This document shows positions 25,291 through 64,000 of a stretch of 64,000 nucleotides of DNA, piece by piece. The position numbers and the translations under genes were made by a program. Under the pieces are notes generated by a model. The model was not told the DNA's origin, did no database searches, and saw nothing but the letters and a program-made list of their open reading frames with translations. Every line of letters starts with the position of its first letter. Positions within the stretch are counted from its first letter, which is position 1. The stretch is from Henricia sp. BOLD:AAB3569 (Eukaryota; Echinodermata; Asteroidea; Spinulosida; Echinasteridae), in assembly GCA_037783545.1 (NCBI GenBank), contig JBBELK010000096.1, positions 1,922,001 through 1,986,000 on the forward strand, in the 5' to 3' direction.

Positions 25291-25293
25291 ACC

Positions 25294-31672: not shown

Positions 31673-31689
31673 ATTTCCCCCTCTTTTTG
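31673..31689 (-). other. Polypurine tract of element B
   Basis: On the - strand aaaaagagggggaaat lies directly beside the 3' LTR. Confidence 0.8.
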
Positions 31690-36100: not shown

Positions 36101-36443
36101 CGTACGACTTATCTATGTTTGCCATGTCCACCCAACGACACAGAATATTGTCAAGCCTAACAGCGAACTGTGGAGGGGTCTCCCCGACATCAGGCTTTGT
36201 GCTTCGAAAATTTGCGCGAAAACCATCTTCCGTCAAATGAAAGCGCTTTAAAAGAGCATCTTTCAACTTGCTATAGTTAGATACATCGTCCAAGGAAAGT
36301 CGGGCATAGACTTCCAAGGCCTTGCCCTTTAATAGAGCACTTAGATTAATCGCCCATTCCCCTCTATCCCAACCTTGCGCAACCGCGTAGCGCTCAAACC
36401 TTTGTAAGTACGCGTCCAAATCATCATGATTTTCATCAAACAC
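33048..36443 (-). pseudogene. Element B gag-protease-integrase-RT(N) frame
   Basis: One frame of about 1,130 codons, broken only by a TAA at 36074-36072. The capsid part (about 36420-35960) has AINLSALLKGKALEVYARL, DYSKLK-type spacing, FRANFRS and RLDNILCRW, then EQF-type and ERKPKSVKE segments in the same order as SCAN domains. A CCHC knuckle is at 35750-35709, protease LRDSG at about 35340, and the integrase zinc module (HESLLGGH...CDIC) near 34690-34560. The integrase core has ACDIVG, LTDQGTQ and NGLVECFN. A chromodomain-free linker follows, then RT start (RSKPYPLP, SPIVLVKKKDG, CIDFRKLN). It would be translated as a Gag-Pol fusion. Confidence 0.9.
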
Positions 36444-36586
36444 AGGTAATTTTGGACTGCGTGCTTTAGCATGACCAACTGGGCCATGGTTTTCACCCGT
36501 TTGCGCTTTTGTTCCATTTTCGTGTTCACGCTCGCCTTTTGTTTATTCTAGAAAGGCAAAAGTAACACATTTTATTTCGTTTTTTT
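36444..36586. other. Leader of element B
   Basis: Short non-coding leader or extreme N-terminus of gag; the true start codon is unclear because no early ATG lies in the gag frame. Confidence 0.5.
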
Positions 36587-36604
36587 TCTTCGGACAAGCC
36601 CCCA
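36587..36604 (-). other. Primer binding site of element B (tRNA-Pro-like)
   Basis: On the - strand tgggggcttgtccgaaga lies five bases from the 5' LTR. It resembles the complement of the tRNA-Pro 3' end (tgggggctcgtccgggat) with a few mismatches. Confidence 0.6.
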
Positions 36605-36609
36605 AATAT

Positions 36610-37680
36610 TGTAACCACTTGACCCTTTACTATTATACTAAGTGCTTGCAAGTGGCTACCCCGGGTCCTTACACCAAAACCAATAATTATTATACGAAAC
36701 AAATTTGTATATTGCTTTAAGTATTTTATTTAGGTATTTACGTATTTACAAAATAATGATAATGGATTCCAATTTATACTAATATAATTCTCAAGGCAAC
36801 TTTAACTCTTTCAATTCAAATCTCCTTATCAAATATAGTTAGCCTTAAGTCGTCCGTTATCAATTCTCCGATTACTCACTTTCCAATTATACTTTGATCA
36901 ACCGTAAATCAATTTATCCAAAGTTCTCAATTCCTAATCAACTCACTATAACCATAGTACTTGCTACGGGCCGTCTAACTACACTTTGAAATACGATACT
37001 GGTTCACACTTATTCAGTCAGTTTACTCAAAGTTCTGTCCATTGCTTGTCAAGCCTCAGTCCAACGGCGTACACGACAGTCCTCTAGTCCGCGAGTCATG
37101 CACGTCTGGTTTCGTGACTACTCCAAACTTGGCCCCGCTGACACTCCCGGTCAGATCACGGTCGCACGGTGGACTTGGGCTGCACAATGGTATACCGTCA
37201 AAATGAACCGTCTCAATGACGTCATTCAAAAGCCATAGTTATCGACGATAGTTCGGCAGACTGTGTGTCGCAGAAACAGCAGGTTCAAACTTAGGGCGGT
37301 AGAAATCTGGAAATCGGCGCTGATTTCTGCCGATCAAATCCAGGCATCGCGTTCCGGGACAGAATTCACCGGGCGATCATCCCTTGCAGAATCAGAGGGT
37401 TTCAGGTGGCTGATACCGGCCCCAGTCACTGACGCACACGTCCACACAAACGTTCTCGATCTGACGAGACTTACTGACCGACTGACACACCCTTCTACCA
37501 CTTTCCCACACTACATATTTCATGACGTCACACTAACATTCTTTATCACGCACACGTTTTCTCTAGAATATGTCTGGAATGTGAGCCGTGAGAACGTTTA
37601 TGCAAATGACTAAAATAAGTAAACTGAGCATGCGCGATAACTATGGCAAAAGTACAAACGTTTTAAAACTTATTCTGACA
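36610..37680 (-). repeat. LTR of element B (5' LTR in element sense)
   Basis: Direct repeat of 30582-31672, followed by the CTCTA duplication. Confidence 0.95.
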
Positions 37681-42996: not shown

Positions 42997-43610
42997 CTAG
43001 TCTGAATCAGATGAGGTGTCAGTATTCTGCTCAGGAGTTACCATCTGATTGACCTGGTTCAGTAGCCTAAGTACACTGGACTGAAACCTTTCAGGTGGCT
43101 TTCCCTTAGTCGTACGCTTCGAGCGGCGAACAGGTAGCAGAGGCTCAGAAATCCCGTCATCTGTCGTGGGAGGCTCAGTCCCTCTGCAGATCATGTTAGC
43201 CTGGGGCTCCTGGGTATCTGGCGTAGGCGTAACATCTACCTTGACGTCAATAAGTACTCTATCCTCTAGGATTGATTGAGATAGGGTACCCGAATCCGAA
43301 GTATCTGCTGCAGACTGGCTCGGTTCAGAGACATGTGCACTTGGTTCAGTCTTTAGGGTGGGGGTGAGGTATCTTGGAGCGTTGCTGGGATGGGCTTAGG
43401 TGCCGAGGCATGTGCATCACTCGACGGAACACTATCTTCAACATCGGGTGGTGGCTCAACTGTCGATGACCAAGTGATGACCTTGCCAACATTGGTATCG
43501 CTGCTCGATGAAGAATGGGAGGGGTCAGTGGCAGAGGAGTCGGAGCTTGGTGACTCAGAACGTTCGGGGTGAACATCCCAGGGGCAGTGCTTCAACTCTG
43601 CACGATGAAG
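42997..43610 (-). pseudogene. Element C pol C-terminal tail
   Basis: Two frames, 43595-43353 and 43194-42997, give LKHCPWD then a Ser/Pro/Asp-rich tail and finally PVRRSKRTTKGKPPERF, a basic motif commonly seen at the end of such pol proteins. It is joined to the integrase by one frameshift near 43610. Confidence 0.65.
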
Positions 43611-45544
43611 AACCAGATCTCTCGCCCAGATGAGTTGCGGACAATGTACACAGGCTGGCCTTCAAAGGGGCGCCCGGTCACCATATATGGCTCGCTTTCC
43701 CAAAAGTCCTGGATATTAGCTCTACCCCTGCGGGTACGGTCACGGACAAGCACATGTTCGCCTCTGTTTAGTGGTCGTTCAAAAATGTCCCGGTCATGGT
43801 AGGTCTTCCTAGCTGCTGCACATTTGTCAATATTAGACGTCGCGATCTTTCGAGCATGTTCCATCTGCTTACAGTGCCTCTGGACGTAAGCGTGAGGGGT
43901 ATTCGCGCATACCTGTGGGAAATCAACGCCCAAGAGCAGGTGCTGTGGAAGACGAGAAGTCCTTCCGAACATGAGGTACGCCGGCTCATAACCAGTAGTC
44001 GAATGTGATGTATTGTTGTACAGAGCCACAAGATGGGGGAGACTCTCAGTCCACCTAGACTTCTTCTCTGCTGGGAGTGTCTTCAGGAGGTTATGAAGGG
44101 TCCTATTAAACCGTTCACATTGGCCGTTTCCTTGTGGCCGGTACGGGTTGGTGTGTGAATGGCTGACCCCATAGAGGGAGCAAAGTTCATGTACCACTTT
44201 GGCTTCGAAGCATTTCCCATTGTCTGAGTGGATTCGGAGAGGTGCTCCGAACGGGTTGATTATGTGCTTTACCAGGACCTTCGCAACTGTTTCAGCCTTT
44301 TGATTTTTAGTAGGAACAGCCCATACAAACTTGCTGAACACGTCTGTAATTACCAACACATTCTCATACCCATCGGAAGATGGCTCCAGTAGGGTGAAGT
44401 CTATTGCAAGTACTTCCATGGGTGCGGTGGCTCGCAGGGTGCCCAGAGGGGGCCGTGTGTGTCGATTTGGCGGCTTAGCAATCCCACATCTTTTGCACTG
44501 CTGGCACCAGAATTTAACCTCAGTCTCCATCCGAAGCCAGAAAAAGAGAGGTCGGATCAACCGCAGGGTCCGTTTGGCACCAAAGTGCCCTCCGTATTCA
44601 TGCAGGTATATTAGTACCGTCTTCGTAAGCTCCGCTGGAACAACCAAGCGGTCTCCTTGGACCCCATCGGGAAAGGTCCAACGACGGAAAAGAACTCCAT
44701 CCCTGAAATACGGTTGACTGCGATGCTTCAGAATTTTGTCAACATCACTCATTCTTGTTGCTCTTTCTTCCTTGGACGGCTTCTTTCCCCCTTCCAGGTA
44801 TGAGATAACCTTGCTCAGAATGACATCAGCTCTCTGATACTGTCGCAACTGAGGAGCTGTAAACCCCGGTAAGGAGCAACTACCCTTGCAATCAGACACT
44901 TGGATGTGATAACACAGTGCGGGTGGTACGTCAGTGCCCTCTGGCAGATGATCAACGATCCCTGCAATTGCAGCAGAAGTCATGTCTATGTCGCTTCCAG
45001 TAGCTCCATCCTGGGAATTAATCGGGTATTGGGCTGGCAGTCTAGAAAGGGCATCCGCTGCCTGGTTAACCTTCCCTGGCCGGTACTCCAGTTGATAATT
45101 GAAAGACGAGAGTTGCTGTACCCATCTGAGTTCCGTGACGCTTAGGTTAGCGGTGTCGATATACTTCAAAGGGTTGTGGTCGGTGTAGACTATGCATTGG
45201 TTTCCCAGAAGATAGTCATGAAACGCCTGACACATCGCCCACTTAATGGCCAACAGTTCTAGTTTGAAGGCAAAGTAATTTCGATCGACCCTTCTCAACG
45301 ATCGAGATGCATAGGCTATTACAGCCTTGGTCCCATCTGCGAGCCTCTGGGATAGCACAGCACCCAGACCAGAGGTGCTTGCGTCTGTCTCCACGACAAA
45401 CGGCAACGAAAAATCTGCAAATTTCAGCACCGGCGCTTGGATCAACTTCTGCTTGAGGGTCACAAATGCTTCCCGGGCCTTCTCGTCTAACTCTACCCTA
45501 TCCTCTCCTGCCTTACCTCCTCTCTTACCCCGAGGGCCCTGCAA
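43592..45544 (-). CDS. Element C RNase H and integrase
   Basis: 650 codons open. RNase H has VETDASTSGLGAVLSQ and YTDHNPLKYI. The integrase zinc module has HEYGGHFGAKRT...CQQCKRC. The DDE core has AIDFTLL, HSDNGKCFE and a QCERFNRTL glutamate. A GPF/GKC-like C-terminal segment is weakly visible near GRPFEGQPVYIV. Confidence 0.9.
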   Translation of the reverse strand: MQGPRGKRGGKAGEDRVELDEKAREAFVTLKQKLIQAPVLKFADFSLPFVVETDASTSGLGAVLSQRLADGTKAVIAYASRSLRRVDRNYFAFKLELLAIKWAMCQAFHDYLLGNQCIVYTDHNPLKYIDTANLSVTELRWVQQLSSFNYQLEYRPGKVNQAADALSRLPAQYPINSQDGATGSDIDMTSAAIAGIVDHLPEGTDVPPALCYHIQVSDCKGSCSLPGFTAPQLRQYQRADVILSKVISYLEGGKKPSKEERATRMSDVDKILKHRSQPYFRDGVLFRRWTFPDGVQGDRLVVPAELTKTVLIYLHEYGGHFGAKRTLRLIRPLFFWLRMETEVKFWCQQCKRCGIAKPPNRHTRPPLGTLRATAPMEVLAIDFTLLEPSSDGYENVLVITDVFSKFVWAVPTKNQKAETVAKVLVKHIINPFGAPLRIHSDNGKCFEAKVVHELCSLYGVSHSHTNPYRPQGNGQCERFNRTLHNLLKTLPAEKKSRWTESLPHLVALYNNTSHSTTGYEPAYLMFGRTSRLPQHLLLGVDFPQVCANTPHAYVQRHCKQMEHARKIATSNIDKCAAARKTYHDRDIFERPLNRGEHVLVRDRTRRGRANIQDFWESEPYMVTGRPFEGQPVYIVRNSSGREIWFFIVQS

Positions 45545-46504
45545 GTAAACATAAAGAGGCGATCTGGATGAACTTCCGGAAGAACCCCATGAAACCCAGG
45601 AATGACCGCAGTTGTTTTACCATCCGGGGCTCTGGCCAATCTTTCACAATTATCACTTTGTCAGGGTCTGGCTTGACACCCTCACCAGCAATCACCAAGT
45701 GTCCCAAGTATTTTACAACTGGCTTGAAGAACCCACATTTCTTGGGCTTTAACTTTAGCCCGAACTGCTGGAGTCGAGAGAACACAAACTCCAAGCGTTT
45801 CAAGTGCTCATCGAACGTGCTGGAGTAGACGATCACATCATCTAAATATATGAGAAGACTCTCTAGGGCCTGGTCACCGAGGCAGCGCTGCATAACTCTC
45901 TGAAATGTGGCTGGACTGTTGCATAAGCCGAAGGGTAAGCGAGTGTACTCCCACAACCCGAATAAGGGGGTCACGTACTACGAAGGCGGTTTTTTTCCAT
46001 ATCCTGCTCCGACATTGCAACTTGGTAGTATCCAGAAGTTAGATCCAATACGCTAAAATACTTAGAGCCCCCAAGTGCCTGCAGAGACTCGTCGATGCGG
46101 GGAAGAGGGAATGAACTTTTCCTCGTCACAGAGTTTAACCGACGGTAGTCCACACACAAGCGAATGGATTGATCTCGTTTTCTGACAACCACAATCGAGG
46201 ATGCCCATGGGCTGTCGCTCTCTCTAATTATGCCAGCGTCTAACAATTCTTGAATGTGTTGTCTCACCTCACGATGTTGGGATGGAGGGAGAGAACGGTA
46301 GCGTTGTTTGATAGGGGCCGAGTCTCCGGTTTCTATGGTGTGCTTAACTTCATCGAAGTACCCGAGATCTCTGTCATGTCGGGAGAACAGACAGCTGTAT
46401 TTTTGCAGCAAAAACTCAAACTGCGATCTCTGCTCCTGGGTGAGGCCTTCTCCCATGTCAACCATACCTAGGAGATCGATCCGATCCGTGTACATACCGT
46501 CCAA
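45525..46504 (-). pseudogene. Element C reverse transcriptase in two frames
   Basis: 46504-45971 carries RT motifs up to SVLDLTSGYYQVAM (motif A aspartate present). 45974-45525 carries RLPFGLCNSPATFQ, LIYLDDVIVYS and YLGHLV. The two frames abut, indicating a frameshift near 45980. A further frame change joins RNase H near 45540. Confidence 0.88.
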
Positions 46505-47362
46505 TCAATTACCGTTTTAAAATAGTATAAAGAAAAAGGAAAAACTAATCCTTTACCGTTTACCGATTTGTAATCTTTATAAAGAAAAAGGAAAAACAAA
46601 CCCTTTACCAATTACCGTTTTTCAATCTTTAAAAAGGAAAAAGGAAAAACAAAACCTTTACCAGTTACCGTTTTTCAATCTTAAAAAAGCAAAAAGGAAA
46701 AACAAATCCTTTACTGAGTATACCTTTTTTTAATCCGTAAAGCCAAAAGGGAAAAACAAACCCTTTACCAGTTACCGTTTTTCGATCTGTATAAAGAAAA
46801 AGGAAAAACAAATCCTTTACTAAGTACCTTTTTTGATTTCGTAAAAGCAAAAAAGGAAAAACAAACCCTTTACCGTTTTACCGTTTTTGGAATCGTTATA
46901 AAGAAAAAGGAAAAACAAACCCTTTACCGTTTTACCGTTTTTGGAATCTTTATACAGAAAAAGAAAAACAAACCCTTTACCGTTTGCCGTTTTTCAATCT
47001 TTAAAAAGGAAAAAGGAAAAACAAAACCTTTACCAGTTACCGTTTTGAAATTTGTATTAAAAAAACGGGGAAACGTATTAAGTTACGGTATTCCTTTTTA
47101 AAATGTGTATCCCGAAAGAACAAAGAACAAATCGCTTTCCGTTTTTTCAGTTGAAATTTGTAAATAAAAATAGCACGTAGGCCTACACTTGTATTTGGTT
47201 CATTTTATTTGACTAAGACAAATAATAGACAATTTTATTATCTATTTCCTTTTCTTTTGTAACAAAAACGTAGCGAACTAAAAACTATGACAAAATATCT
47301 GTACTGAAACAAAAAAGGAAAAAGGGTAACAGAAAAAGGAAAAACGAAACCCTTTACCAGTT
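46495..47362. repeat. Left inverted arm with about 54-bp subrepeats
   Basis: About ten imperfect units of the form accgtttttcaatcttta, then aagaaaaaggaaaaacaaac and cctttaccagtt, between about 46511 and 47060, then a unique inner part. Reverse complement of 54800-55613, which is about 54 bp shorter, that is one unit. Weaker similarity (atccgagtgcggccga-like) extends to about 47400. Confidence 0.93.
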
Positions 47363-47741
47363 GAACGCACGACATCCGACAAATTCCGAGTGCGGCCGAA
47401 GTCATCCGAAATTTCCGGAAGTTCACCCCATGCACCAATTTTTTTTATAAAGCTTATGTCGGGTCCAGTTCCGGATGTAAAGGCTAATAAATACAATCAC
47501 AATACAACAATAACATTTTTTACAACATTAATTTGTTTAAATTTTATTTGTAAAGAGGCATTGTACAAAATTATACAGCACAAACTTCCCCAGAATGCAT
47601 TGCAACACATTTCACATCCGGTCTTCAGCAGCTAGCCCTAGCCCCCGCCGCGCCCCGGGGGTGTGTTACATGATGCACGGTGGGGTCAGACTCAGACATA
47701 ATGTGCTGCATATGGGGGTAGCATACGAATTACGATACGCC

Positions 47742-47972
47742 ATGGCCGGGATGGAAGCTTTCAAAGTTGAGATTGTACGGCTGAAAGATAGCGGTTTAAC
47801 GAACAAGCAGGTTGCAGAAGTCTTGAAAAATAACCAGAGAACAAGTGGAGAGACTACTTATGGTCTTTCAGAGAGGTCAGTCCGTAGATTCTGTCAGCAT
47901 CACGGCGGGATAGGGCAAGCAACGGTCACTGATCAGGATCTGCGTACAGCTGTTGATTGTGCTGTAGAACAG
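47742..47972 (+). CDS. Transposase N-terminal exon (HTH)
   Basis: 77 codons from ATG 47742 (second ATG at 47751), donor cag/gtaggc in phase 0. It encodes AFKVEIVRLKDSGLTNKQVAEVL and YGLSERSVRRFCQHHG, a helix-turn-helix pattern typical at the N-terminus of integrase-core proteins of eukaryotic DNA transposons. It ends DLRTAVDCAVEQ, just where the YGRR-type linker and catalytic core would follow in that family. That core is not in the window. Confidence 0.75.
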
Positions 47973-49013
47973 GTAGGCCTACAGTAGTGCTAGTACTAGT
48001 GTAGTAGTAGGCCGGCCGACCTGCATCAAGCAATCACCGGATTCAGCACCACATTCAATCGTCAAATGAGCACCAGATTCAGCACCAGATTCGAATATGT
48101 GGTCCTAAAAGTAACGATTTACAGTTACTCGGACTAAGATAGCCCTACATGAGTTAAGTTAGGCCGGGAAGATTTTACTAATCAAAGGCCGGCCCCCACC
48201 AAAATTGGTCAGAAACAGCTAGATCTTGGAAAATAACCATCCATCCTTGACAACAACTTGCTAAACATGTGGCACAACCTGTTATTTTCAGATTTATGTC
48301 GGTAAATCAACAGTAGGCCTTGCCTACATGCGAACACATGAGTGGCTGTACACTACTGTGCCAAGAACAAGTAACACAGAAAACACAAACTTTCTTCCTC
48401 TACATGTACATAGCACACAATTGTCCCAAAAAATTACAAAATTCAAGATTGTGCCAAGTGTTTATACAATTCTTAACAGAAATGGATAGTTATTTGACAA
48501 AGATTTTGATGTTCCTGACAAATGTTGGTGGGGGGTATTAAAGTAAACAAATTCCATTAGGCCAAGGGATTGACAACAAGGTGAACTACATGTAGGATTG
48601 GGAAATTTCACAGTTGTATGATTTGAAAATTCACTCCTGGGTTTTGACAAAATGTATCTTGGTAAATTGTACTGAAAATGTTCAACTAATTTGTTTATGA
48701 AATACTCCAGTGGATAAAGTGTAAACACCACTCTGAGTGAATCAAGAGCAAATATTGTGGGATATTTTACTGCACAACACATTTAATTGCCATACATGGT
48801 TAAAAACCATTGTTATTAGGTCTATAACCATTTTTCTTAGGTCTGGAACCATTTTTGGAAGCTTTGGGTAGAGAAATTTTGCGTCAATTTGAGTGATTCT
48901 TGCCGAAATTTCGGTGGTCGCCGGGGAAAGGTTTTCCGTGATGTCGCCCGTTTACAGCATTCAGGGTTATTAAAATACTATCAAGTAAAATAATATCTGT
49001 TCTATTACATTAG
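47973..49013. other. Gap where the transposase catalytic core is expected
   Basis: Non-coding sequence on both strands by inspection, with no DDE/rve-like motif. Either the core exon was deleted or this is an unusually spliced derivative. Confidence 0.6.
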
Positions 49014-49330
49014 GTAGAGGCATACCAAATCAACTAGCACAACAAAGTGCGAGAGCAGCTGTGACAGCTGTGACAGCTCAGCATTTTCCACCCGCACATG
49101 TAGCAGCAGACTGGTATTCAAGGGACCTTGGCTCAACCCTCACAACTTGTGCTAAGTTTGGACAGGACCCATTCTCGACAGAAGAGGAAATGAATGGCTG
49201 TCAATTGGAAGTACAGAGAGAACTCCCTGACCTGCACCATTTGATGAATAGTGCTGTTAATCAAGACTTTGCACCCATGCAGGATGCTTTACTTAGACTA
49301 ATAGACATCACTCGTCGACATGTTGCATAA
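49014..49330 (+). CDS. Transposase C-terminal exon
   Basis: Acceptor ttacattag at 49005-49013. It encodes RGIPNQLAQQSARAAV, then DWYSRDLGSTLT, FGQDPF and a Leu-rich end FAPMQDALLRLIDITRR; stop at 49328-49330. GRGIPN..., FG.DP and the terminal IDxT motif match the C-terminus of integrase-core transposase-like proteins. The phase (needs one base from upstream) does not join directly to the 47972 donor (phase 0), consistent with loss of an intervening exon. Confidence 0.7.
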
Positions 49331-50058
49331 CAAAGTAACTGTTGAATTTCTTGGGAGTTAAATATAACTGAGAGATTCTGGGGTGCGATTTGGCGGTCAC
49401 AACCAAAAACTGGTTCAGTTGTTTCTCTTTGGTTAATTTTTTTGGGGATTTGAGTCATCGTTCAAACTATTTGAAATTTCCAAAATAATCTGCCGGCAAG
49501 AAACAACCAACCAAATTTTTGGTTTTGACTGTTTATGACCGCCAAAAATGCACCCCTGGACTAGGCTACTTTCTGTGTTAATCAGCTATGCCAAAAAAAC
49601 CTTGGATAACTTGGAATGAAATGTATTCATCTAAACAATTTTCCTCCTCCCCCCTCAAAAAAAAAAACACTCACTGAGTCTCATGTTTTGTAACATCTTT
49701 TTGAGATTTATTCCAGTTTTAACAAAATCTCTTTGACTTTAACAAAAGAAAAATATTATGAGCTTACCAATTAGAAAATCCTTACTGTTCAAGACATGTT
49801 GAAGACATGTTGGCATGTAAATTGAATAAAATTCAAACCTGTCCTTAAATAGTGAGTTTTTTATGAGTTTTCTTCAAATATGCAAAGGCACATACATACA
49901 AACAAACCTGTTAAATTATGAGAGGTTGAGTGTTAACTCGAAACAGGAAAAACATTTTGTTTAAAGAATACAGGGTCATAACAAAACAATTATGAGCATC
50001 AAATTTAGGGTCAGGCATCATGATACAATATGCACTCTGTGTAACACTCCATGTTGTT

Positions 50059-50252
50059 TTACTCCATTTTGAGGATGTTGGCAAGAGCTTTCAGTGCCTC
50101 CTCCAATCCAGTGGCCAAGGTACTGTCTCGCTCCCCTGTCTCGGCTCTACACTTGGGGCAGTGGCTGCTGGCCAAGTACCACTGTGACAGGCAAACCTGA
50201 CACGCAAGCAGACACTTGCAGCATCCTGCAAACATGGGCTTCTTCAATGGCC
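50059..50252 (-). CDS. RING gene last exon
   Basis: Acceptor ttacacag. GPLKKPMFAGCCKC...CQVCLSQW...SSHCPKCRAE forms most of the zinc module; stop TAA at 50061-50059. Confidence 0.7.
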
Positions 50253-53200
50253 CTGTGTAAAAGAAATTATTAAAACATAATTAAACATACCTTAAATAAA
50301 ATTTTAAAAAGGGATGATGTCCAATAACCAATCTATGTACCAATAAAGATGCTGGATCTCACACGCCATCTGCATCTGGCCCATGTGGTCTGGACTCGGG
50401 CCTAACAAAAGTTAGTAGTTTGTCGTCTTTCTTTATTTGCAACTAGGCTACAGCATTTTACATTTAGCTGTAATGGCATGCACTACATTTACCAACCTTT
50501 ACATATGCAGCAGGAAAAGGACTCCCTAATTGTTTTTTCCTCCCTTCTTGTCAGCTTTATCAGGATGTCATTGGATGTTGCACTGGAAATGGCATCCAGG
50601 CTCTCCTCAATAGACTTCGATTTCTCCAATAATGTGTCCATTAGGTCACTCTGCTCCTCCAGAGCCTCACTGACATCTCTGGCTGTGTCTCTGCGTCTAA
50701 AAATACGATACAAGTATACAAAAATTCATTTCAACTTAGGGCCAACTCTCTTTTTGACATACATTGATGTTTTAATGATATCTCATTATGTATTGAGTTG
50801 ATGTTCTATTCTTAAAAAGTCCCATTGCTAAATTGCTTACTTTGTAAGGCCAAAAAAAAAAGACAGTCTGTCTCTGATCCGCGCGATTTTGACCATGCGC
50901 GTCAATCCTTTTTTTTCCCAAACAATTTGGGAAAAAAAATCAGTGGTAGCTACAACAGCGTCCTATTGTTGAACTGCATCAACATAGACATTTCTTTTGT
51001 TTGTTGCACACAGTTTTGTATGGGGGTGTCATAAGGACAAAAATTCAAGCTGTAGTTTGCAACAGACTCACCTTGTCTGTACAATCCAATTTTGAAAAAA
51101 GAAGAAAAAAAACCGTCGCCGCATCAGTTCTGGTCTGAATAGAGACTAACCTACTTTTTAGTTTGGCCTAACACTGTCATAGTTATTATTTTACAATTGA
51201 CCAATGGCACGAAGAACAAAATGGTCCGTAAAAGTAAGCAAATTTATTTATTTATTTTAAAAATCTGTACAGTTATTGGAAGAGCACGGGGAGTGTACCT
51301 TTAACATTACTTTTTTTTATCTTTGGTCTTGGTTATATGGAATACTATCATTTTTAGATATTCCTTACACAATAGTTTGTAATTTGTCCTTAAAACCCAG
51401 TTGGCTGTGAGTTATTGGTTAATCCCAATTTTTCTTCTTGTTTGTACACCAGCATCTGAACATTGAGATCATTGCTTAGAAATAGATTTGTGAATTGTAT
51501 ATGTAAACATGTCATGTCAACTTTAATAGACTACTAAAGTGTGACGTCGGTTGCCATGGTTTTTGGGTCTAAACATTCGCTGGTAATCTGAAACGTGCAT
51601 TGGTATAGCGCAGGGAAACAGTTCACTGGTTTTAGTGTAGACCCAAAAACCATGGCAACGCACAAAGGGTGACGTTTTCACTTTAGTAGTCTATTGTGGA
51701 CTTTTAAACATATTTTACTTGTTTTCCATAGATCTGCTGATCTACTAATGAGAATTTGTAGTTTTGAATCCCGGCGCCCTCTGTCATACAGTGAAATCTC
51801 GATAAGTCAAACTCTGATAACTCAAAACTCCTGTCAAATCAAACAAAGAATATATTTCCTTCAGTAGTATAACAATGATACAACTTCTCTTAACTCAAAA
51901 CTCTGCTTAACTCACATTTTGAGCTTGTTTACTTGAGATTTGACTTATTGAGATTTTACTGTATGTCACTGATTTTAGTTTTCACAACCCCACTCAAAGG
52001 CATTGAGTTTAAAGTCCTGACACATGTTGGGATGGGCAAAAGCATTCCCAATTTTAGCAATATATCTAAAAAAATAAATAATAACCTGTGCTTGGTTTTT
52101 CTGCTGGTCCCACTCATGTACTCTCTGTGGGTAGAGGCCGTCATGCACAGGATCTTTCGGGTTGGTGTTTTCCAGAAGTCATGTCCTAAAAAGAAAATCA
52201 ATTATGATAGCAAAATAAGATCATGGTTGTTTCAATCTGTTGATTAGATGTACATTTTATTTTGGCAAAATCAGATGTCTTTACAAATTAAGAGTTGGCC
52301 AAGTGTGACTGGAACAAACAATTTGAATTTTTTTGGACATTGGCTTCTCACTTTGTTTGACAGTGATTCAATTTTGTTTGTTAATGGCCATGTTTGAGAG
52401 TATTTGCACCAACCTTGGGTCCCCGGGCCATCTTGGATCTCATGCCCCTTGCTATCAACGACAATGATGGGCTGCTGGGAGTCAAGCTGCTCCTGCAATT
52501 TGTCACTGACAAGCCTACATTGGCCTCCTGCTCATTCAGCCTCAAATAGATGGTCTGAATCGGCATCAGTGTGGAACCCTGGGCCTCCACAAGCTGGACA
52601 CTTCTATGTGTTGAATTGCAAAGAAATTTATATTAAATGCCAATAGACAGTATTTTCTTTTGATAAAATTGTTTTGTTATATACCAAACTTATCCAGTTA
52701 AGTCTCACTATGAGCAAAAACATGTACATGTTCATTGTAACCCCATTGTTAGTAACAATGGTGTGTGCCCAATTTCCATTGTTAGATGTTCATAGTGTCT
52801 GCATTGAAAATACTGTTTCAAGCAAGAGACTCACTGCATTGTAGCCACCAGCTATTTAGTCAGATAAAACATGGGGAGATCTTAAATAGTTATAAAGGTC
52901 ACATGATCAGTTGTGTAATTGTTTTTAATCCGAATTGGGTGAATTTGGTGATCAGTTACTGCAATACAACTGTATTTAAAAATGTAATTATATTGTCACA
53001 CAAAGTGTTTGTTGGATTTTTTTATGGACAACTTGACATGTTTACCTTGCAAAGGTTTTACTTTGCGCCCTTCTGAATGAAGGTGGGGTTGCAGCCCATG
53101 ATGGTTGTCCACCAGCTGAAGCCCCTCTGGAGCTAGAAGCAAACGAGAAGCCGCGTTGGCTCTGGCTCATTGATGGGGCTGTGGAGAATGCTGGACTCGG

Positions 53201-54385
53201 AGGTTGTTGGGGTTGGGTCGTGGAAGTGGGACCAGTTGTGTCACCATTTACTTCATAGTGGGCTTTGTCTGTCAGTAGGTGCACAGAGTAATTCCCACTC
53301 TCATCCGGGAAGATGGCTGTGTTTCTGTCATCAGACAGAAACATGGAGTCCTGGGTAACCTAAAAATTGATATCCAGGTAAAAATAAACATTTTCAAACA
53401 CAGGTCATCAGGTACAGGTATAGACCTATACTACATGTACAATGTACTAGTATGTGATGATGTGATAAGTTAAAAAAAGGTTTTTGCATTATTAAGTTGT
53501 AAAAGGTTTCAGCTTTAATTTGGGTACATGTAATTAAAACTCAAGTAATTCATTATTTATTTCAGTGATTTATTTATTTATTACATTGTTTTCAAGCTGG
53601 ATCATGGTCTAAACACTTCTAAATCTAAGAGTCATATGCACAGCTACAAGTACAGAGTGTTCGGGAGGGGGAATTTTAAAAATTAGTGGTTATTTCTAAT
53701 TCTTTTTTGAAATTATTACTTTATAAAGTTTACATCCGGAAAAGCATGTCCCCAAAAATTATAAGCATCAAAAAAATGTATACTCGCACTCTCCTTTCCA
53801 TCAATATAATAGGCCCCCTAATTAACGAGTAGAAAATATATCCATTTTTTGTTCATGTTCTTTATACTAAACTTTTTAAGTTTTTTTTTAAATAGGCCTG
53901 CTGTATTAATTTTGGGGAAACAATTGTTGTAGACCTGAGTCTACTTTTATTGCCGTTGCCACGGTGTAATTTTAGTTGAACCATAGCAGTACGTACAGAT
54001 TTGAAACTAGGCCTACTGCCTCATTACTAATGCGCCAGTATTCTGACCGCAATGCCTTGGAGGTTTGCAGTCCGGCAAGGGTCAAGACCCCACCGCTCTA
54101 CTGGGCGGAACCAGGAATGCATTTTTCCTTGCTGTAGTTTCTCATGACCAAAAGTATCGAGGCCGTCCCAGTAATTAAGGGGCAGCATGTACTTTAAAAT
54201 AACGAATTAGTCTTAGGCCTGGGCGGCCTAGGTTCTAAAAATTAAATAAATAAATAAATAAATGCAAAAGCAATGTTTACAAAAATGGTACATGGAATTC
54301 CTTTTTTCATTCAGCAGACTAGGGGCTACGGGCGTGCCCTATTTGAACACCCCCCCCCCCCGCCCCCCCCCCCCCCCCCGCCCCG

Positions 54386-54417
<32 letters not shown>

Positions 54418-54636
54418 ACCCCCCCACCCCCTCCCCCGCCCTAAGCCAAAGGCTTGGGCCTAAGCTAAGTAAATGTCAATCATGACTCGACTCATGTCTT
54501 GTACGATATTAATCGGCCTCTGATTAAAATTTTACTGTATACGCACCTGAAAAATGCGGCTTATTTTGCCCGTTGTCATATCATCGTCTCTCAGGGACAA
54601 TCTCTTGCTACCTCTAAAGAGCACGAACGTCTCCAT
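50059..54636 (-). CDS. RING-finger accessory gene, six exons
   Basis: Exons in coding order: 54636-54547, 53359-53046, 52603-52414, 52185-52086, 50696-50497, 50252-50059, about 360 residues. The N-terminus METFVLFRGSKRL...ISRIFQ leads to a Pro/Ser/Thr-rich linker. A middle part PIIVVDSKGHEIQDGPGTQ and FWKTPTRKI follows, then an acidic coiled segment in exon 5. The end is a RING-like zinc module spanning exons 5-6 (CCICKG, GCCKC, CQVC, HCPKC). Phases agree at all junctions except within exon 3, where a one-base deletion near 52530 is needed to pass from EQEAN to DKLQEQL. RING proteins are usually E3 ubiquitin ligases; its role here is unknown. Its location inside the TIR unit suggests an element-borne accessory gene. 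Confidence 0.65.
51525..51695. mobile_element. Palindromic MITE inside the TIR unit
   Basis: Ends aatagactactaaagtg and cactttagtagtctatt are inverse. The inner part also pairs (ttgccatggtttttgggtct / agacccaaaaaccatggcaa). Located in the large intron between RING exons 4 and 5. A related copy is at 22007-22130. Confidence 0.85.
51787..51963. mobile_element. pogo-type MITE
   Basis: Ends tacagtgaaatctcgataag and its near-inverse ttattgagattttactgta, flanked by TA. Inner sequence repeats aactcaaaactc. 177 bp, no ORF. Confidence 0.85.
54243..54263 (+). repeat. (AAAT)n microsatellite
   Basis: Five aaat units. Confidence 0.85.
54350..54438 (+). repeat. Poly-C tract, about 85 bp, with few G and A
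   Basis: Almost pure C from 54350 to about 54438, interrupted by single G, A or T bases. The inferred proline-rich ORFs are artefacts. It sits between RING exons 1 and 2 and is a likely assembly weak point. Confidence 0.9.
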
Positions 54637-54799
54637 CTTTGTTGTAAAATTTCTAGAAAAAGTTGAACTTGCTAAGTATAGAGTGCGCGCCAAAATGCAG
54701 CGGGCCCGCGCGCCCTCAACGATACAAACAAAGTTTTCTTTTCCGGAAACAACCGAGTCACTTTTGACAACTCGGCCGCACTCGGATTTCGTTGCGCGT

Positions 54800-55613
54800 A
54801 ACTGGTAAAGGGTTTCGTTTTTCCTTTTTCTGTTACCCTTTTTCCTTTTTTGTTTCAGTACAGATATTTTGTCATAGTTTTTAGTTCGCTACGTTTTTGT
54901 TACAAAAGAAAAGGAAATAGATAATAAAATTGTCTATTATTTGTCTTAGTCAAATAAAATGAACCAAATACAAGTGTAGGCCTACGTGCTATTTTTATTT
55001 ACAAATTTCAACTGAAAAAACGGAAAGCGATTTGTTCTTTGTTCTTTCGGGATACACATTTTAAAAATGAATACCGTAACTTAATACGTTTCCCCGTTTT
55101 CTTAATACAAATTTCAAAACGGTAACTGGTAAAGGTTTTGTTTTTCCTTTTTCCTTTTTAAATATTAAAAAACGGTACAACGGTAAAGGGTTTGTTTTTC
55201 CTTTTTCTTTATAACGATTCCAAAAACGGTAAAACGATAAAGGGTTTGTTTTTCCTTTTTTGCTTTTACGAATTCAAAAAAGGTACTTAGTAAAGGATTT
55301 GTTTTTCCTTTTTCTTTATACAGATCGAAAAACGGTAACTGGTAAAGGGTTTGTTTTTCCCTTTTGGCTTTACGGATTAAAAAAAGGTACTCAGTAAAGG
55401 ATTTGTTTTTCCTTTTTGCTTTTTTAAGATTGAAAACCGGTAACTGGTAAAGGTTTTGTTTTTCCTTTTTCCTTTTTAAAGATTGAAAAACGGTAATTGG
55501 TAAAGGGTTTGTTTTTCCTTTTTCTTTATAAAGATTACAAATCGGTAAACGGTAAAGGGTTAGTTTTTCCTTTTTCTTTATACTATTTTAAAACGGTAAT
55601 TGATTGGACGGTA
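54800..55613. repeat. Right inverted arm
   Basis: Reverse complement of 46495-47362 with about 54 bp fewer; the same aaaggaaaaacaaacc-type subrepeats in inverse form. Confidence 0.93.
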
Positions 55614-55642
55614 ACACGTTCCCGCCCACTATAGCCAATACG
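55614..55642. other. 29-bp junction between TIR unit and duplicated segment
   Basis: aacacgttcccgcccactat then agccaatacg. It is unlike the left flank of the TIR unit (element C pol) and unlike the sequence left of 17673, so it marks a rearrangement or assembly junction. Confidence 0.6.
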
Positions 55643-56964
55643 ATGTCATTCATTAATCCTTCTCAACTCCCTGTGGAGCATGCATTCCAGGGACTAATCA
55701 AACAATTACTGTTCACTACCCTTGCCAGGACCAATCTTGCATCTTCTCTCTTGGGTGGAGAGGAGCATATGCCTTGCCCAAGAGCACATAACATGCACTA
55801 TGGATGGGCTGGGATGAGATTTGAGCCCACAACATGTGGATTAACCAAAGTCTCGGCTTCAGTGTGCTACAACACTATTGTGCTCCACCTTCATACTTTG
55901 GTACTACATGCTTTCAAAACTGTTCAAGTTCAGTGATTTTCTAAAGTTTGAGCAAAGTGATTCCCACACCAATGAAATGTGACATTTCCTGTTTGTGAGA
56001 GAATCTTGTAGTTAAAACAATTTTGTTGGCTTTCAACCTTATTGAAATTGCGTTTGATGAGCTACGTGTAAACTCTGGAGCCGTGTGTCTCAAAAACAGC
56101 TCTAGCAGTGCAGGTTCTCAGGAAGAACTTCAGGCAAAGTGGCGCACCCTGCATCAGCAGCTCTTACAGAGGCTGATGCAGTCAGCCTTGCCCAAGAGCA
56201 CACACACCATGGACAAGCCGGGATGGGATTCGAACCCACGATCTGTGGATTTACTTGGTGTAAAAACATATCTGACACATTTAAAGTTGATTTACCTTTA
56301 AACTACATTTTGTAACATATATTGCACCTTGACTATGGTACATGTACACTCAATATGAAATAATTTTGTTTGATGAAGTTTGGCTGCCTAACAATAAATT
56401 ATTCACGCTAACGCAACAAGCAATTTCTTTTTTGTCTGGTCACATGGGTGGTTTCTTGGTGGTGAGCAGACCTGACTGGAGTAATGCCGTAGCCCCTTCC
56501 TTTTTTGTGTGACTAACCCCATCAAACAGTCATTACATAATAAAGAAAAGACTTTAGCAGCCATTTCACTATGTTCACAACAGAGCAAAGGATTTTTAGT
56601 CAAAGTTGAAATTGATCATTTGCAGGCATTAAATTGAGGTCTCTGCTCAGGGAAGGCAGAAAAACAGTTTAACAAAGAAATTGCTTGTTATGTCAATGAG
56701 TAAATGAGGGTTATGCAACCAAACTTAACCAAACAAGTCTTTTACATTAAGTATACAGCAGCCAATGCTTAATATGTTTCAAAATATAGTTTACAAGTTA
56801 TTAAATTGTAAAAGTGTCAAATATAGTACATGTATTCATTTGCTCCTTTTGTCTTCCTTTGGGGTTTAAATATTATATTTTGCAATAAGGTGGTACGTTT
56901 TAAGAAATAAAAAAAACATAACAGAAATGAAGTATGTGTAACAGACAGTTGTATCCCCTATTAC

Positions 56965-59900
56965 CTGTCAATGAGTTCACTACATGCATTGAAATTCTTC
57001 ATTGGGTCTACAGGAACATTGTGTGTCTTCAGGAAATTTCTTGAAGCATAAAGCGTTCCAACATCCCTTGATCCAGCTGGTTCAGTTGAATAAAGGTATT
57101 TCCACATAACCTACATGCATACAACAACAATTTTTTTTTTGGTAAATTAAATGAAGTTCTGCTTGTTAATAACTGTCACTATTTTTATCATATACCAAAA
57201 TTTGCTTTTTAAAGTCCCGTGCACGGGACTTTTTTACCATTTACTTGTACACAAAATCTATATATAGATTTTCAAGGTTTTCTGAAGCATTGGTGCATCT
57301 ATGTAGCTAAATTTTCTGCAAGCTAGTTTACAAACATTCTTCCTTATATATGTTACACTCTTATTCCACGAATTTGTACAAAGTTTTATCTTGCAAATGA
57401 TATATATGGCCTTTAAGACTTATCTACATCATGAAATATTGAAGTCTTCAGATAGAGTCGGACATCAAACAATATTCTACATGCCTGGTAGAAATTGCCA
57501 AGTGCATGGAAATCCTCGATAACTGGTATTAGGCCAGCCCAGCGTGCCTTTCTTGATGAGTCTCTCCTGTCCTCTTGGATGTTTTCTTGTCTTTCACAGG
57601 TAAGTTGGTCCCCTCCACTTAGTATTTCAATGGGGCTGTCAGTATCCGAATCTGGAACATACTTATTGATGTACTCCATTATCTTCACCATTCCTTCGTT
57701 GGTATTCTCGTTTTCTGTTATCACTCCTAATCCAATCTACACAAAAATTTAAACATACAAAAGGTAAGAAAAAGATATTAAACAAATTATTTCACAGCAA
57801 CATGAGGGCCAATGTCAGATGAGGCTACACAAGTTTATGTTACAATAATTTATATGCACACTGAAGTAAAATCTCACCACTTCCGACTTGGTGCAAGACT
57901 CTTTGCTGTACGCATGAGATCTTGAAGTTGTGGGTTTTGAGAAGGCTGGTAGATAATCAGAAAGGACTCGTCTGATTATATCAACCCATCCATCCCGGAG
58001 CTCCATGTTGTCTTGAACACTTGGCACAAATAATGATAGGTCCATCTCCTTTCTGATTGGTGCATCATTGGGCAAGTGACTTCCTGAAACCTGAAATATA
58101 CAGAGATAATATGATGTACACAGTGTTAATTATCTATGTTGAATTCTTGGGAAAGCAACTTAAAAACATGTTTATGAAATTAAAGTACCGTGGCCTAGTG
58201 GTTCAGGTCACTTGGGTCATACTCGGTGAAAACTTTAGGTTGCTGGTTCGATACCCTGCCATGGTAATTGTGCTGTTGAACATGGCATCTAACCACAATT
58301 GCTCCATCCTTCGGAAGGGATGTAAAGCCGTTGGTCCAGTGTGTTGAGTAACACACTAAAAAGATCCCAGAGGCACTCTTTTGTGAGGAGTAAAAGGGGA
58401 TTCTCCGGTGTCTGTGGTCATGGGCTGCCAATGGCGCCACCCACTTATGTATCGCTATGTTAGTGGAAGATACCTGTAAGCTTCTGTAAACTCAAAATAA
58501 TGTACATGCTCACATGGAATGTGTAATCTTAATAATAATAAGTATACCTTATTCTTCACTGCCATGACATTACAATAATGCAAATCTCTGTTGCCTTGTT
58601 GCCTGGTCACTTGTCGTGGAGAGATTCTCAGATCAACATTGTCAATTACAATTTTGAACCCTGGTTGCATGTTGAGCAAGTGTTGTTTAAGACTTTCTTC
58701 TGCTTCTGTTAAGGTGCTCGGTTCCCTCTCGTCCACGTTTTCTTTTGGTTTCATTTCTGTCAGGTTTGTGATTTTTTGTCTCAGTTCTTGTTCAACTTTC
58801 CTGTCCTCTGACATTTGAGCTGCCCATTTCTTTACAGGAGCATCAAAGTCTTTCCCTAAAGCAGCTTGGCACTTGATGATGGCTTTGTATGATACAGACA
58901 ATCCTCTGCAATGTAGTCTCTCTATTGCTTCTTTTGTAACTCCTCCCCGTTTTAGTTGAAGTCCTGTGAGTGTCAAATGGCTGTTCATGTTGCAGTTGCG
59001 ACAATACAGGAGTGTTCCCACCGCTGATAGAAGACATGGCAAAATGGTCTCCTTTGTCTTCACTTTAGTCCTCTTTAATGATTTCTCATTCACTGCAACT
59101 GCTTGAAGGATGTGATGAAAAACAGGTGCTTTTTCTTTAAGTTCCATCTCCTGGTTGATGTAGGACCAATTCTGAAAAAGGGCATTCTAAGAATGGGTAA
59201 GTTACATTTTGTTACTCTGCTTCATTGATTAAAATCTCAAGAACAAAATGAGATGTGATGCATTTGTATGCTTGGAGGCTACAATTTTTGCAAAATCAGA
59301 ATGATCAGGAAACCACTTTTGTTGATAATTTCTGTTGCTAAAATGTGGTGAAAAAACCTGATGATGCAATTATAATTTACACATTTACATAAAAATATAT
59401 TTGTGCAAAAAATGGATCACCTCAAGAGCATCTTTGTCTGTCCGTTGAAAAAGAGATTCCACATCCTTCTTGCAAAGTCCATCAACCTCTCTTACTACAA
59501 TGTCTGTGACTGCCTGTGGACAAATCTATAAATGTTAGATAGATGTTTAATAAGCTGTGTACGTGTTCTTTTAATGTTTCATTTTTATGGTAAAGTAGGT
59601 TACCCCCTCCTCCCTTCACCTAATACCAAAACACACAAAACCAACACTAAATACCTGGAATACATGGAATGTCCAGTGGAATACAAATTAAGGGCAGACC
59701 GTTTGTTTTATTTTTTTTGTAAGTTTAAGCAATGTTCAGTTGGCTTAATTACCGGTTTAGAAAAGTGCTAGTTTAAATTGTCAAGAAAAATTAGAAAAAT
59801 ACAATTGTTATGCACATTTACAATTGACTTTCAGAGTTTTATTGTCACACCAAAAACGTGAAATAACTCGGAAACAACACTGAGATTTGATATTCTTCAT

Positions 59901-60558
59901 TGTTGCTAATAATAGGGAATCTGAGTGGAGAATTTAATCAATCAAATTTATCGTTTCTGTTGGCTTGGTAACAACAGATTACTAAAGTGTGATGTCAGTT
60001 GTCAGGGTAACTGGGTCTAAACATTCACGGATAATCTGAAAGGTCCATTGCTAAAGTGCAGGGAAACAGTTCACTGTTTTTTGTGTAGACCCAAAGGACA
60101 ATGAATGCCAATACATGTACCTTCAGATAATGTTGAGGTAGATGAACATTGACTGTTTTGGCATGTTGGCAGGGTGATTTTGAAACGTCAAATGACAATT
60201 TCTTTCGAGGTCTCTGTTTGTGTGGAGATGGCGACGGGCTTGAACGGAACCTTTTACAGCTTAGCCGCTTCTCGTCTGGTGTTTTGCATTCTCGCTTCAC
60301 TTTCAAATCTGCATGATATTCCGCAAAAACCTTTCTCAGATCTCTCGCCAAACCCTCTAGCTTTTCAATGTTGACAATTTTTGTATGGCAAGGTCCGCAC
60401 ACACGTTCAGTTTGGCTTGTCAAAAAATATGTCACGTCTTGCCCCAGGATTGTTTCTACTCTTGATTGAAGGTCGGATCTGTGAACCAGGAAGTACTTTC
60501 GACTCGAAAGAATCTGTTGCTTGCATATTAAGCATTCACGCCACTTTTGAGTCTCCAT
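56965..60558 (-). pseudogene. DUF6589-type gene, second copy, lacks last exon
   Basis: Exons 60558-60121, 59513-59421, 59171-58548, 58090-57878, 57736-57485 and 57110-56965 correspond one to one to exons 1-6 of the gene at 22588-16602. The duplicated block begins downstream of exon 6 (in transcription), and the seventh exon with the C2H2 finger is absent. The reading frames are intact, but the transcript would run from exon 6 into the right TIR arm. Probably a truncated copy. Confidence 0.8.
58185..58422 (+). mobile_element. tRNA-derived SINE (duplicate of 20215-20452)
   Basis: Same sequence and position within intron 3 of the second DUF6589-type copy. Confidence 0.8.
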
Positions 60559-61219
60559 AATTATTGCAGCGAATACGGAATAGTCTCATATACTCACATA
60601 ATAAGCACGTGTGTATGTTTACATACATCCACTCGAGAACTCGTACAATAGATTTGTACAATTCCCCTTGTCTCCAGGAATTTCACATGGCGTAAAGTTA
60701 TATTAAACAAATAATTACATGCGATCATTTTCAATCCCTTTTTAAGTGTTTCATGTTTTATCTTTTCTTTTTGAAAAAAAAATCACTTATTTATGTTACT
60801 TTTTTGAATATTGAAAACTGGTTAATGATACATGCATTTGCGAAAAAAATGGAGCGACAGCTTCAAGTTTAATATAATTATCTCCACAGGGTCACGTCTA
60901 AAACACATACAATGAAAGTACAAGAAGCGACAGTTCCATTCTATCAAAAGGTAAAATATTGGTCACACCGTAGCAAGCGTACATTTTAGTGTCATTTTCG
61001 TTCACACGATTACAATATTTCGTACTTTAGTAATGAAGTCTACAGGAGAATAGTAGATAGAAACTGAAACATGTTTTTGGAAACGTGCCGCGATAAAATG
61101 TTAAACCAACTCCCACCTGTGAAAAATCGACGCGACCAACCGGATTTTCATACGCCCCAATTGGCTGTCGCTACGGAAACCGCGCTGTATGTAAATCCAA
61201 CTGGTGAATACATGAATGT

Positions 61220-61342
61220 AGCTGGCGTGCAGGATTCCCAAGTCCGAGATCCTTAACCGAAATAGACTAGTTCCCTGTCCATACATTTCAAAAATCGGAA
61301 ACGGAAAACAAAACAGGATCTCGGACTTGGAACCAAGTCTAC
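61220..61342. repeat. Small palindromic repeat, copy 3
   Basis: Duplicate of 23250-23372; inverse of 4062-4182. Confidence 0.75.
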
Positions 61343-62006
61343 ATGGCACGTTAAACGAAAGCACTTGTCTTCATCTATCGGAAAAACGCTATTGTTTTCC
61401 AAAGTTTTGTCTAGTCCAGTCAGGAATCACAAACCAATTGACACCCTCAAAATCCACGATACGACCCATCACTTCAGATTTACACAATTACCAACTAAAC
61501 AATGACCCAAATTGTGACAAAATATACATCAATCGAAAGAGGAAGAATTATTCTACAAACTTACCCCGCCATCTTGGCCACCAACTACTCGTTAAAAACG
61601 CTTGCGAGCAACGAAATAAGGCCAACGAAATCTCGCGAACATCCCGGACTTTCTCGCGGCGCGTTCACGCCAATGAGCTGTGCAGATAAAATTGGGCATT
61701 TGACCTCATTATCGGGGGCGCTGCGGACTGACTGTCATAGAATACCGTCCGGAAGATTTCAAAAACACATGAGGCTTTTTTTCATTATTCATTTTTCATT
61801 ATTTTGTAAAACAGGTGCCCGAGGGGTACATAGACAATGATAGAGGTGCACTTCCGTCTTCAGATCGTTTTCACGTCTGCCATCATTGCATGACAGGCAG
61901 ACACCGATGAGACGTAATTTTTCATTGGCCAAAATTCGATGTCGCGATGGCAACAGCCAATCAGATGACGGAATACATAAGTGTACAGAACGTCCGAAGA
62001 GAGATC

Positions 62007-62122
62007 GGGGGCGCGTTCAATAGCACAATACATACGTACGCCTGTATGGGTATTTTCCTATACCTTCACCGTTGAAGGTATTGTCGGTATGCATATACGT
62101 ATTGCGCTATTGAACGCGCCCC
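62007..62122. repeat. 116-bp hairpin element (duplicate)
   Basis: Same as 24037-24152. Confidence 0.85.
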
Positions 62123-62585
62123 GGGACTTCAGTCGGATTTGCAGTCTCGCGCGGCTACACCGAAACACGAAAAGTGGAATTGTGTGTCAGAACTTGGATC
62201 TCGCGCTCAAGACTATCGTCTGCCGTCTGATTTCGAAAAATCTGGTTGATTGGTCGGAATTTCTCAGCGGCGGCCATTTGGTCATGCGGGCGGAGGACGG
62301 TATTCTATGACTTTCATTCCGATGGCCTTATGTCCGATCTTATTAGTTTAGGCGCCGCCATATTGGCGGGGGATACATTATCCCCCATAGTTCTAGGGGT
62401 ACCCGACGTCACTTTTTTTTGTTTTGTGGGCCTATACATTGAACAAATATTTTAAGGAAATTTACTCCTGACTAGCTGGAATCAACATAGGCCTATCATC
62501 AACTTCTAAGTAAGGCTAGGCTACTTCCCACAGTGACTAGCTGAGGCATGAGCATGGTGAGGTTACCATGTTACCTTTAAAGCCC

Positions 62586-63259
62586 TACTTCAAAATACTG
62601 AAAGGCACCAAGGCCTGTTTTTTTGCTGATATATGCTTCTGCTTGGCGGCATGGGTGACTTTCAAGATCAGCACTTTTTTTTCCCCATCAAAATCGTTGC
62701 TCAAAATGGAATCTTTAGACAAGTCTTTTTACAGGAAATTGCCATTTTTTGGTAAAATCAAAATCTCTACACGTTCTACATACCTCCCTGGTCGTAATTC
62801 TCTGAAAACTTACGTACATACCTCCGTTTTTCTCAAATTCACAAACTCACCTCGCGTGCGTGCAGAACCCTGTTAAACATGGTGGATGGCTGCCGCATTG
62901 AATTATGGGATGACACAATGGCTCGATCCGAATTAGTGGCTTTGGCTGTGGCTATGGCTGTTGCTATGGACGGACAATGAAAATCAATTATGGGATGGTG
63001 TCATCCCATAATTCAATGCGGCAGCCATCCGCCATGTTTGACAGGGTTCTGCACGCACGCGATGTATATAGAACGTGTAGAGATTTTGATTTTACCAAAA
63101 AATGGCAATTTCCTGTAAAAAGACTTGTCTAATAATTCCAATTTGAGCAACGATTTTGATGGGGAAAAAAAAGGTGATGATCTTGAAAGTCACCCATGCC
63201 GCCAAGCAGAAGCATATCAGCAAAAAAACAGGCCTGGGTGCCGTTCAGTATTTGGAAGT
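62586..63259. mobile_element. Foldback family 2 element (duplicate)
   Basis: Same as 24616-25290 with a handful of single-base differences. Confidence 0.88.
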
Positions 63260-64000
63260 AACCTTAGCCCTAGCCCCGCGAGCAGTGCTTCGGAAAACCT
63301 CAGCCCTGTCGCCTAATCTACCCCAAATCTGTGGCAAACTCACGCAAATGAAATTTGTCCCATGGCTCTGATATTTGCTCAATAGGTGCTGAGTGCACCT
63401 ATTGAGCAAATATCAGAGCCATAGGACAAATTTTGCAAATTTGCAAATTTGCAGTTTGCAAATATTCCGAAGAGTACGCGTCGATCCGATGTCTAGTTTC
63501 GGTGAAATCGTGGGCAAACTTGAGACCCTCCGTTGTTTGGTTTGCCCAAAAATCAAATGTGCGAGAGCGGAGAGGTCAACACTAGACAGTTCCACATCGT
63601 CAATTTACTTCCCTTCGTCGTAAGATGAAGGGAAGTAAATATGAGGACAGCGAACCAGTCTAGATTGTGTTGACCTTGTACGTCTGAGTCGTCAGGTGTG
63701 CACTTCAGTCGGTTCGTACGTGATAATACTACGTACGTACTTGATAATTTAATGCGTACGTACGTGATAATAATACGTACGCACATAATATTACATGTAT
63801 CACGTACGTACTTACTAAAACAAAATGTCCCCTCTGGGTCTTCGTATGAAAGGGTTTACCGACGGCTGATTTGGAATGTAAGGTAAGGTCGTGTAGCATG
63901 ATTCAACATGGCGAATGGAGTGAAATTGGTGAAGGGCTAAAAGTGATACAAAATGGTAATGTCCCAATGTAAATGTCAGAAAATCAGTTTTAATTAGCCT

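Follow-up and report, generated by a model that had tools for sequence, protein, structure and literature searches.

The window analysed here, a stretch of 64,000 nucleotides from the sea star Henricia sp. BOLD:AAB3569 (contig JBBELK010000096.1, positions 1,922,001 to 1,986,000), holds a unit of about 9.1 kb in which part of a transposase gene (+ strand) and a gene for a RING-finger protein (- strand) run towards each other from opposite ends, between long inverted arms. We consider it very likely that this unit is a non-autonomous copy, reduced by internal deletions, of a DDE (aspartate-aspartate-glutamate) transposon with two genes that has moved in this genome. The arms (46495-47380 and 54793-55613) are identical at 809 of 821 aligned bases, with 65 gap columns, and BLAST and a repeat finder concur on them. 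Each consists of an array of about 0.5 kb, made of repeats of about 53 bp, and of an inner part of about 0.35 kb that is unique and lies outside the array; 33 aligned units from the arms of two copies have the core GGAAAAACAAACCCTTTACC..TTACCGTTTTT in common. A sequence-only reading of this DNA, made by a model, had described a unit closed by such arms at 46495..55613, with a transposase (+) and a RING gene (-) both pointing to its interior. The arms and the layout were rightly seen, but the coordinates miss the true ends (the element starts at 46483, 12 bp outside 46495, and the terminal 12 bp on the right are absent), the repeat units of which the arms were said to be built (9.8 and 8.8 of them) do not extend into the inner part, and the gene pair is damaged. 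RING exon 3 is frameshifted, and transposase exons 2-5 are missing, so the window copy cannot encode a complete transposase. No DDE core was found in this copy by reading its open frames or by exon and protein matching, and the idea of a hidden core was rejected for want of any match in these comparisons.

The missing part is present elsewhere in the genome. In the host assembly (740.7 Mb in 2104 contigs, the window lying on C96) the arms have matches in at least 43 places, and 20 stretches around these were retrieved for study. On another contig, at C217:698657-715429, the same inner ends enclose an element of 16,773 bp, which shrinks to about 15.9 kb when a small insert acquired later is subtracted. 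Compared block by block with the window copy it is 98.5-99.2% identical (95.9% in the block at the transposase end), and its interval from transposase exon 1 to exon 6 is longer by 6445 bp, which hold the missing DDE exons. Both of its genes are open, with six exons each and GT-AG borders at five of five introns in each, giving proteins of 407 amino acids (transposase) and 362 amino acids (RING). The transposase exons that the two copies share are identical over 549 bp, and the spacer between both genes is whole in these two copies only, a 58-bp piece of it lying on C542. A 416-bp piece of RING intron is present in partial copies elsewhere and was therefore lost in the window copy. The C217 copy also holds a piece of about 890 bp (L033:5356-6244) with inverted ends of its own and a TTA repeat; we rejected it as element sequence, since by eye it is a later insert resembling a miniature inverted-repeat transposable element. 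With the same gene pair, the same ends and a 6-bp target duplication, the C217 copy bears out the earlier suggestion that paired genes and repetitive arms form one element design. It also shows what the sequence-only reading had proposed to look for: both genes, the same termini, a DDE core and target duplications.

What moved can be read from the ends. Among 35 ends in the retrieved stretches and the window (two unrelated matches in the window, with 5 mismatches, are left out of the counts), GATCCGTGTACA lies directly outside TACCGTCC in 32, with no confirmed clean insertion among the other three. Genome-wide there are 31 occurrences of the exact 25-mer end and none of the pattern read backwards, which is beyond what chance would give. 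Both ends lie within one retrieved stretch or the window in 11 copies, and in six of these an exact 6-bp direct repeat (CCCAAC, CATTTT, GTGCAG, GTGTAC, CCCCAC or AAGAAG) stands right outside GATCC..GGATC. The moved unit therefore includes the outer 12 bp: it ends in GATCC..GGATC and makes 6-bp target duplications. For one copy (L025) the outer right end was used and the inner right end dropped, as its pairing yields no duplication; a longer repeat of 9 bp is also present there at other offsets. At L031:805-833 two element ends meet at their tips, GGATC being separated from GATCC by GATCT alone, and extra GATCC or GATCT units precede an end in L024, L026, L027, L028 and at the left end in the window. 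These arrangements could reflect nested insertion or an end-joined intermediate.

The other nine two-ended copies lack complete genes. Their ends were typed by markers from each side of the element, the marker for the RING end excluding a long tract, almost entirely of C, in RING intron 1 (54350-54441), in place of which the C217 copy has a shorter C-rich tract. The window and C217 copies each pair a transposase end with a RING end; two RING ends are found in six of the 11 copies and two transposase ends in two, and the end type of L022 is ambiguous. Eight of the nine are thus foldbacks built from one element end. The sequence-only reading had held that arms occurring elsewhere without either gene would point to a simple satellite foldback. 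Complete genes are indeed absent from these nine, but RING exon 1 is kept in seven of them and the helix-turn-helix (HTH) exon in two, and because of this we read the arms without complete genes as derivatives of the element and not as an independent satellite. This one genome shows a large element giving rise to one-ended foldback derivatives with repeat-rich arms.

The transposase is, by its profile matches and by the structural model of a relative, an integrase-fold DDE enzyme with an N-terminal helical, HTH-like part and a core like that of retroviral integrases. The spliced protein matches Pfam rva_4 at 2.1e-15 and, below threshold, HTH_21 at 0.011. Its relatives at E <= 1e-3 number 305, and the best 120 of these are mostly from teleosts, with sponges and corals, at 42-61% identity. 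In 15 relatives picked by hand from the best 120 for alignment, rva_4 is found in all, IS3-type HTH_21 at E <= 1 in 10 (best 4.1e-4), and the catalytic D143, D201 and E240 (numbering of the sequence as typed) are invariant; in a wider set of 39 relatives both aspartates are invariant and the glutamate is present in at least 90%. Before the core the 15 have a single invariant cysteine and no invariant histidine, and hence no HHCC motif. A fish relative was modelled (pLDDT 88), and its structural matches at E <= 0.001 are IstA, TnsB, retroviral integrase and Mu transposase, with TM-scores of 0.23-0.36 of the query; the shared fold is therefore that of the core, not of the whole protein. By sequence, the transposase has no meaningful match in the PDB, and of 15 pattern matches in viral contigs none was confirmed as a relative. 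Distant integrase-like frames on C829 and C598 were set aside, as they were not shown to belong to this transposon family. An integrase-like frame without introns, distantly related (25% identical), occurs at L075:874-2354 and L076:993-2336, in each case preceded by a tandem array of units of about 21 bp.

All six RING exons occur together at two loci in the genome, both inside these element ends. Against the PDB, the C-terminal part of the protein finds PCGF5 (6.6e-5) and Arkadia (7.8e-5), and most of its 44 matches at E <= 10 are RING proteins; the RING of RAG1 is among the weak ones (0.027). Five related database proteins were found, including two from the tubeworm Lamellibrachia satsuma and two isoforms of LOC117559020 of the icefish Gymnodraco acuticeps. 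Only one of the tubeworm proteins covers the RING from end to end; one icefish isoform includes the later cysteines, and the remaining three stop short of the RING or lack it; the model of a tubeworm relative was too poor to use (pLDDT 32.5). The contig of LOC117559020 measures 5,384,906 bp, equal in size to that of the transposase relative LOC117559009, and the two LOC numbers are near, which suggests, short of proof, that the transposase-RING pair also occurs in fish. The partial RING copies on C502 and C542 (L071-L074; exons 5-6, about 94% identical DNA) share flanks with one another.

Several observations weigh against the reading of the window unit as a copy of a mobile element with two genes of its own. 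A single copy with both genes open was found in the genome. Five of the 11 two-ended copies (the window copy, L024, L027 (displaced), L026 and L028) are without a clean 6-bp duplication: a GTCCTC repeat follows 5 extra bases at one end of one copy, a 5-bp repeat follows 5 extra bases in another, and the window copy, L026 and L028 have no duplication, the last two looking like one element in two places. The Pfam RING score lies below the cut-off (0.034 for the whole protein, 0.0075 for the fragment). The ratio of non-synonymous to synonymous changes per site (pN/pS) in the RING exons, comparing the window and C217 copies with the partial copies, counts in favour, at 0.16-0.36, and would fit selection on the RING protein, but it is no proof of it: the changes number 3-6.5 (synonymous) and 3-5.5 (non-synonymous), and among the partial copies the ratio spans 0 to 0.80. 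Lastly, C502 and C542 hold RING exons 5-6 at four sites in all, with no arms seen in the 3-9 kb retrieved. These arm-less places, and the commonness of arms without complete genes, would be expected if a host RING gene had been caught by chance between the arms and were a passenger without any role in the element. The sequence-only reading had named as a refutation a RING gene that is single-copy host DNA with orthologues outside such arms; in this genome exons 5-6 were seen apart from arms, the complete gene only inside these ends. We think a chance passenger unlikely, given that the six exons are together only inside these ends, that exon 1 persists in seven of the nine derivatives, and that relatives exist in tubeworm and icefish, the latter on a contig matching in size, and near in LOC number, that of a transposase relative.

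One could also take the unit for a typical IS3EU member whose TA..TA ends lie at 46495 and 55613, the outer GATCCGTGTACA being merely a preferred palindromic target. The inner ends TACCG..CGGTA, 12 bp inside, have the palindrome TGTACA on either flank, as if it were a 6-bp duplication, and termini are reported to be TA..TA always in IS3EU and mostly in GingerRoot (occasionally TG..CA), with 6-bp target duplications usual (PMC10045372). Nevertheless, the six different 6-bp direct repeats lie outside GATCC, for which reason we rejected TA..TA as the true ends, and fungal TET-bearing IS3EU elements end in TAYGG..CCRTA, not TACCG (PMC12730594), so that we give this explanation little chance. As a speculation, an older TA..TA element may have sat in a palindromic target, its flanks having turned into new ends. 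A pair of satellite or foldback arms enclosing decayed gene fragments, which was never mobile as a unit, would suit the eight two-ended copies with both ends from one side (six RING end, two transposase end), but is contradicted by the 6-bp duplications, the copy with both genes open and the 31 exact ends against none in the reversed control, and is highly improbable.

For the preferred reading, that of a deleted copy of a mobile two-gene DDE transposon, the anatomy and the related integrase-type enzymes suggest the following mechanism. The transposase would bind both the arm repeats of about 53 bp and the terminal GATCC, bring the two ends together at GATCC..GGATC, and probably make cuts with a 6-bp stagger, insertion then leaving the 6-bp target duplications. 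The window copy would be mobile only by means of enzyme supplied in trans from a complete copy. For the RING protein, the most likely role is that of an E3-type accessory factor which the element has retained and which would modify a host protein or the transposase; candidate targets are the transposase, a repair factor and a silencing factor. We put forward more tentatively, and with rather less than even confidence, that the element belongs to an animal lineage of integrase-type transposons with two genes that has so far gone undescribed. The transposase of this lineage would have a separate protein of RING E3 type as its conserved partner, mobilised along with it, in this host and the icefish at least and perhaps in an annelid, and the GATCC..GGATC ends may derive from ancestral TA..TA ends stepping outwards after insertion into a palindromic target. 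Were the RING protein a true partner, transposition would be tied to host protein turnover, in the way that other host interfaces are suggested by the alpha-kinase and TET/JBP genes of IS3EU elements in fungi. Because the family is small and one copy has both genes open, the role of the second gene is directly testable.

The features of the window copy are collected in Table 1. In its surroundings, a block of 8.4 kb occurs twice (17668-26050 and 55636-64000, 99.57% identity), the second instance starting 23 bp beyond the element's damaged right terminus and reaching the edge of the window. At 30582-37680 two direct repeats of about 1.1 kb (96.4%) flank Gypsy-type pol frames (-), as in a long terminal repeat retrotransposon, and at 43592-46504 there are Gypsy-type pol frames (-) at whose edge the left end of the element lies.

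Table 1. Features of the transposon copy in the window (positions of the window).
Feature	Position	Strand	Basis
Left terminus: extra GATCC (46478-46482), then conserved end GATCCGTGTACA (46483-46494)	46478..46494	+	GATCCGTGTACA before TACCGTCC in 32/35 ends; duplications abut GATCC
Left terminal inverted repeat, transposase end	46483..47380	+	Self-comparison, arm alignment
Left array, 9.8 units of ~53 bp, core GGAAAAACAAACCCTTTACC..TTACCGTTTTT; putative (inferred) transposase-binding sites	46529..47046	+	Tandem-repeat detection; 33 aligned units
Transposase exon 1, start codon and HTH region	47742..47972	+	231/231 nt identical to 16.8-kb copy
Deletion junction: loss of 6445 bp, including transposase exons 2-5 with the two D and the E, relative to fuller copy; no microhomology	48797..48798	+	Comparison with C217 copy
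Transposase exon 6, C-terminal part and stop	49014..49330	+	Identical to 16.8-kb copy
RING gene exon 6, most of RING and stop	50059..50252	-	Exon matching, splice borders, PDB matches
Deletion junction: 416 bp of RING intron 5 gone; kept in fuller copy and in partial copies on C502/C542	50373..50374	-	Copy comparison
RING gene exon 5, first RING cysteines	50497..50696	-	Exon matching, splice borders
RING gene exon 4	52086..52185	-	Exon matching, splice borders
RING gene exon 3, frameshifted relative to fuller copy (1-nt gap)	52414..52603	-	Exon matching, splice borders
RING gene exon 2	53046..53359	-	Exon matching, splice borders
RING gene exon 1, start codon	54547..54636	-	Exon matching, splice borders
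Right terminal inverted repeat, RING end; last 12 bp lost	54793..55613	-	Arm alignment, end search
Right array, 8.8 units of ~52-53 bp	55116..55579	-	Tandem-repeat detection

We call the element IS3EU-like. IS3EU/GingerRoot is the nearest described group found, as the sequence-only reading had anticipated, on the strength of the integrase-type transposase and the 6-bp duplications; the match is one of described traits and not of position in a tree. Shared are the integrase-type DDE core without HHCC, the 6-bp target duplications and the long terminal inverted repeats, whereas the GATCC..GGATC ends in place of TA..TA and the arms with 53-bp arrays set the present element apart. In fungal TET-bearing IS3EU elements a transposase and an alpha-kinase gene stand in opposite orientations (PMC12730594), the second gene here being a RING gene instead, and the fungal element Styx has been modelled as derived from a two-protein IS3EU element (PMC10853768). 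The literature yielded no description of an IS3EU-like element that carries a RING gene, a weak negative covering part of the open literature, with Repbase and Dfam outside its scope. Ginger1 has an N-terminal HHCC before its core (PMC10045372), unlike the 15 aligned relatives of our transposase. Among bacterial systems, IS21 shares the integrase fold, its IstA being the best structural match, at a low TM-score; the literature links IS3EU to IS3/IS481 (PMC10045372), which are bacterial and distant, and whose HTH_21 appears weakly in 10 of the 15 relatives. Long inverted arms with internal tandem repeats are shared with foldback elements, such as Tetris of Drosophila, which has many rearranged forms (PMC4079207). 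Tetris and Galileo differ in their ends and repeats, and here a source copy with an integrase-type transposase lies in the same genome. Galileo, from Drosophila, reportedly belongs to the P superfamily. Polintons (Mavericks) carry DNA polymerase B and capsid genes beside an integrase; in the 16.8-kb copy no stop-to-stop frame is longer than 142 amino acids, the one of that length lying in an arm, and no profile search for polymerase or capsid genes was made. RAG1L-RAG2L has a Transib-type core and a RING within the enzyme itself. Likened by description only as to the enzymes, it nevertheless shares with our element the two-protein design with one DDE enzyme, both proteins of TransibSU coming from one transposon (PMC4411706).

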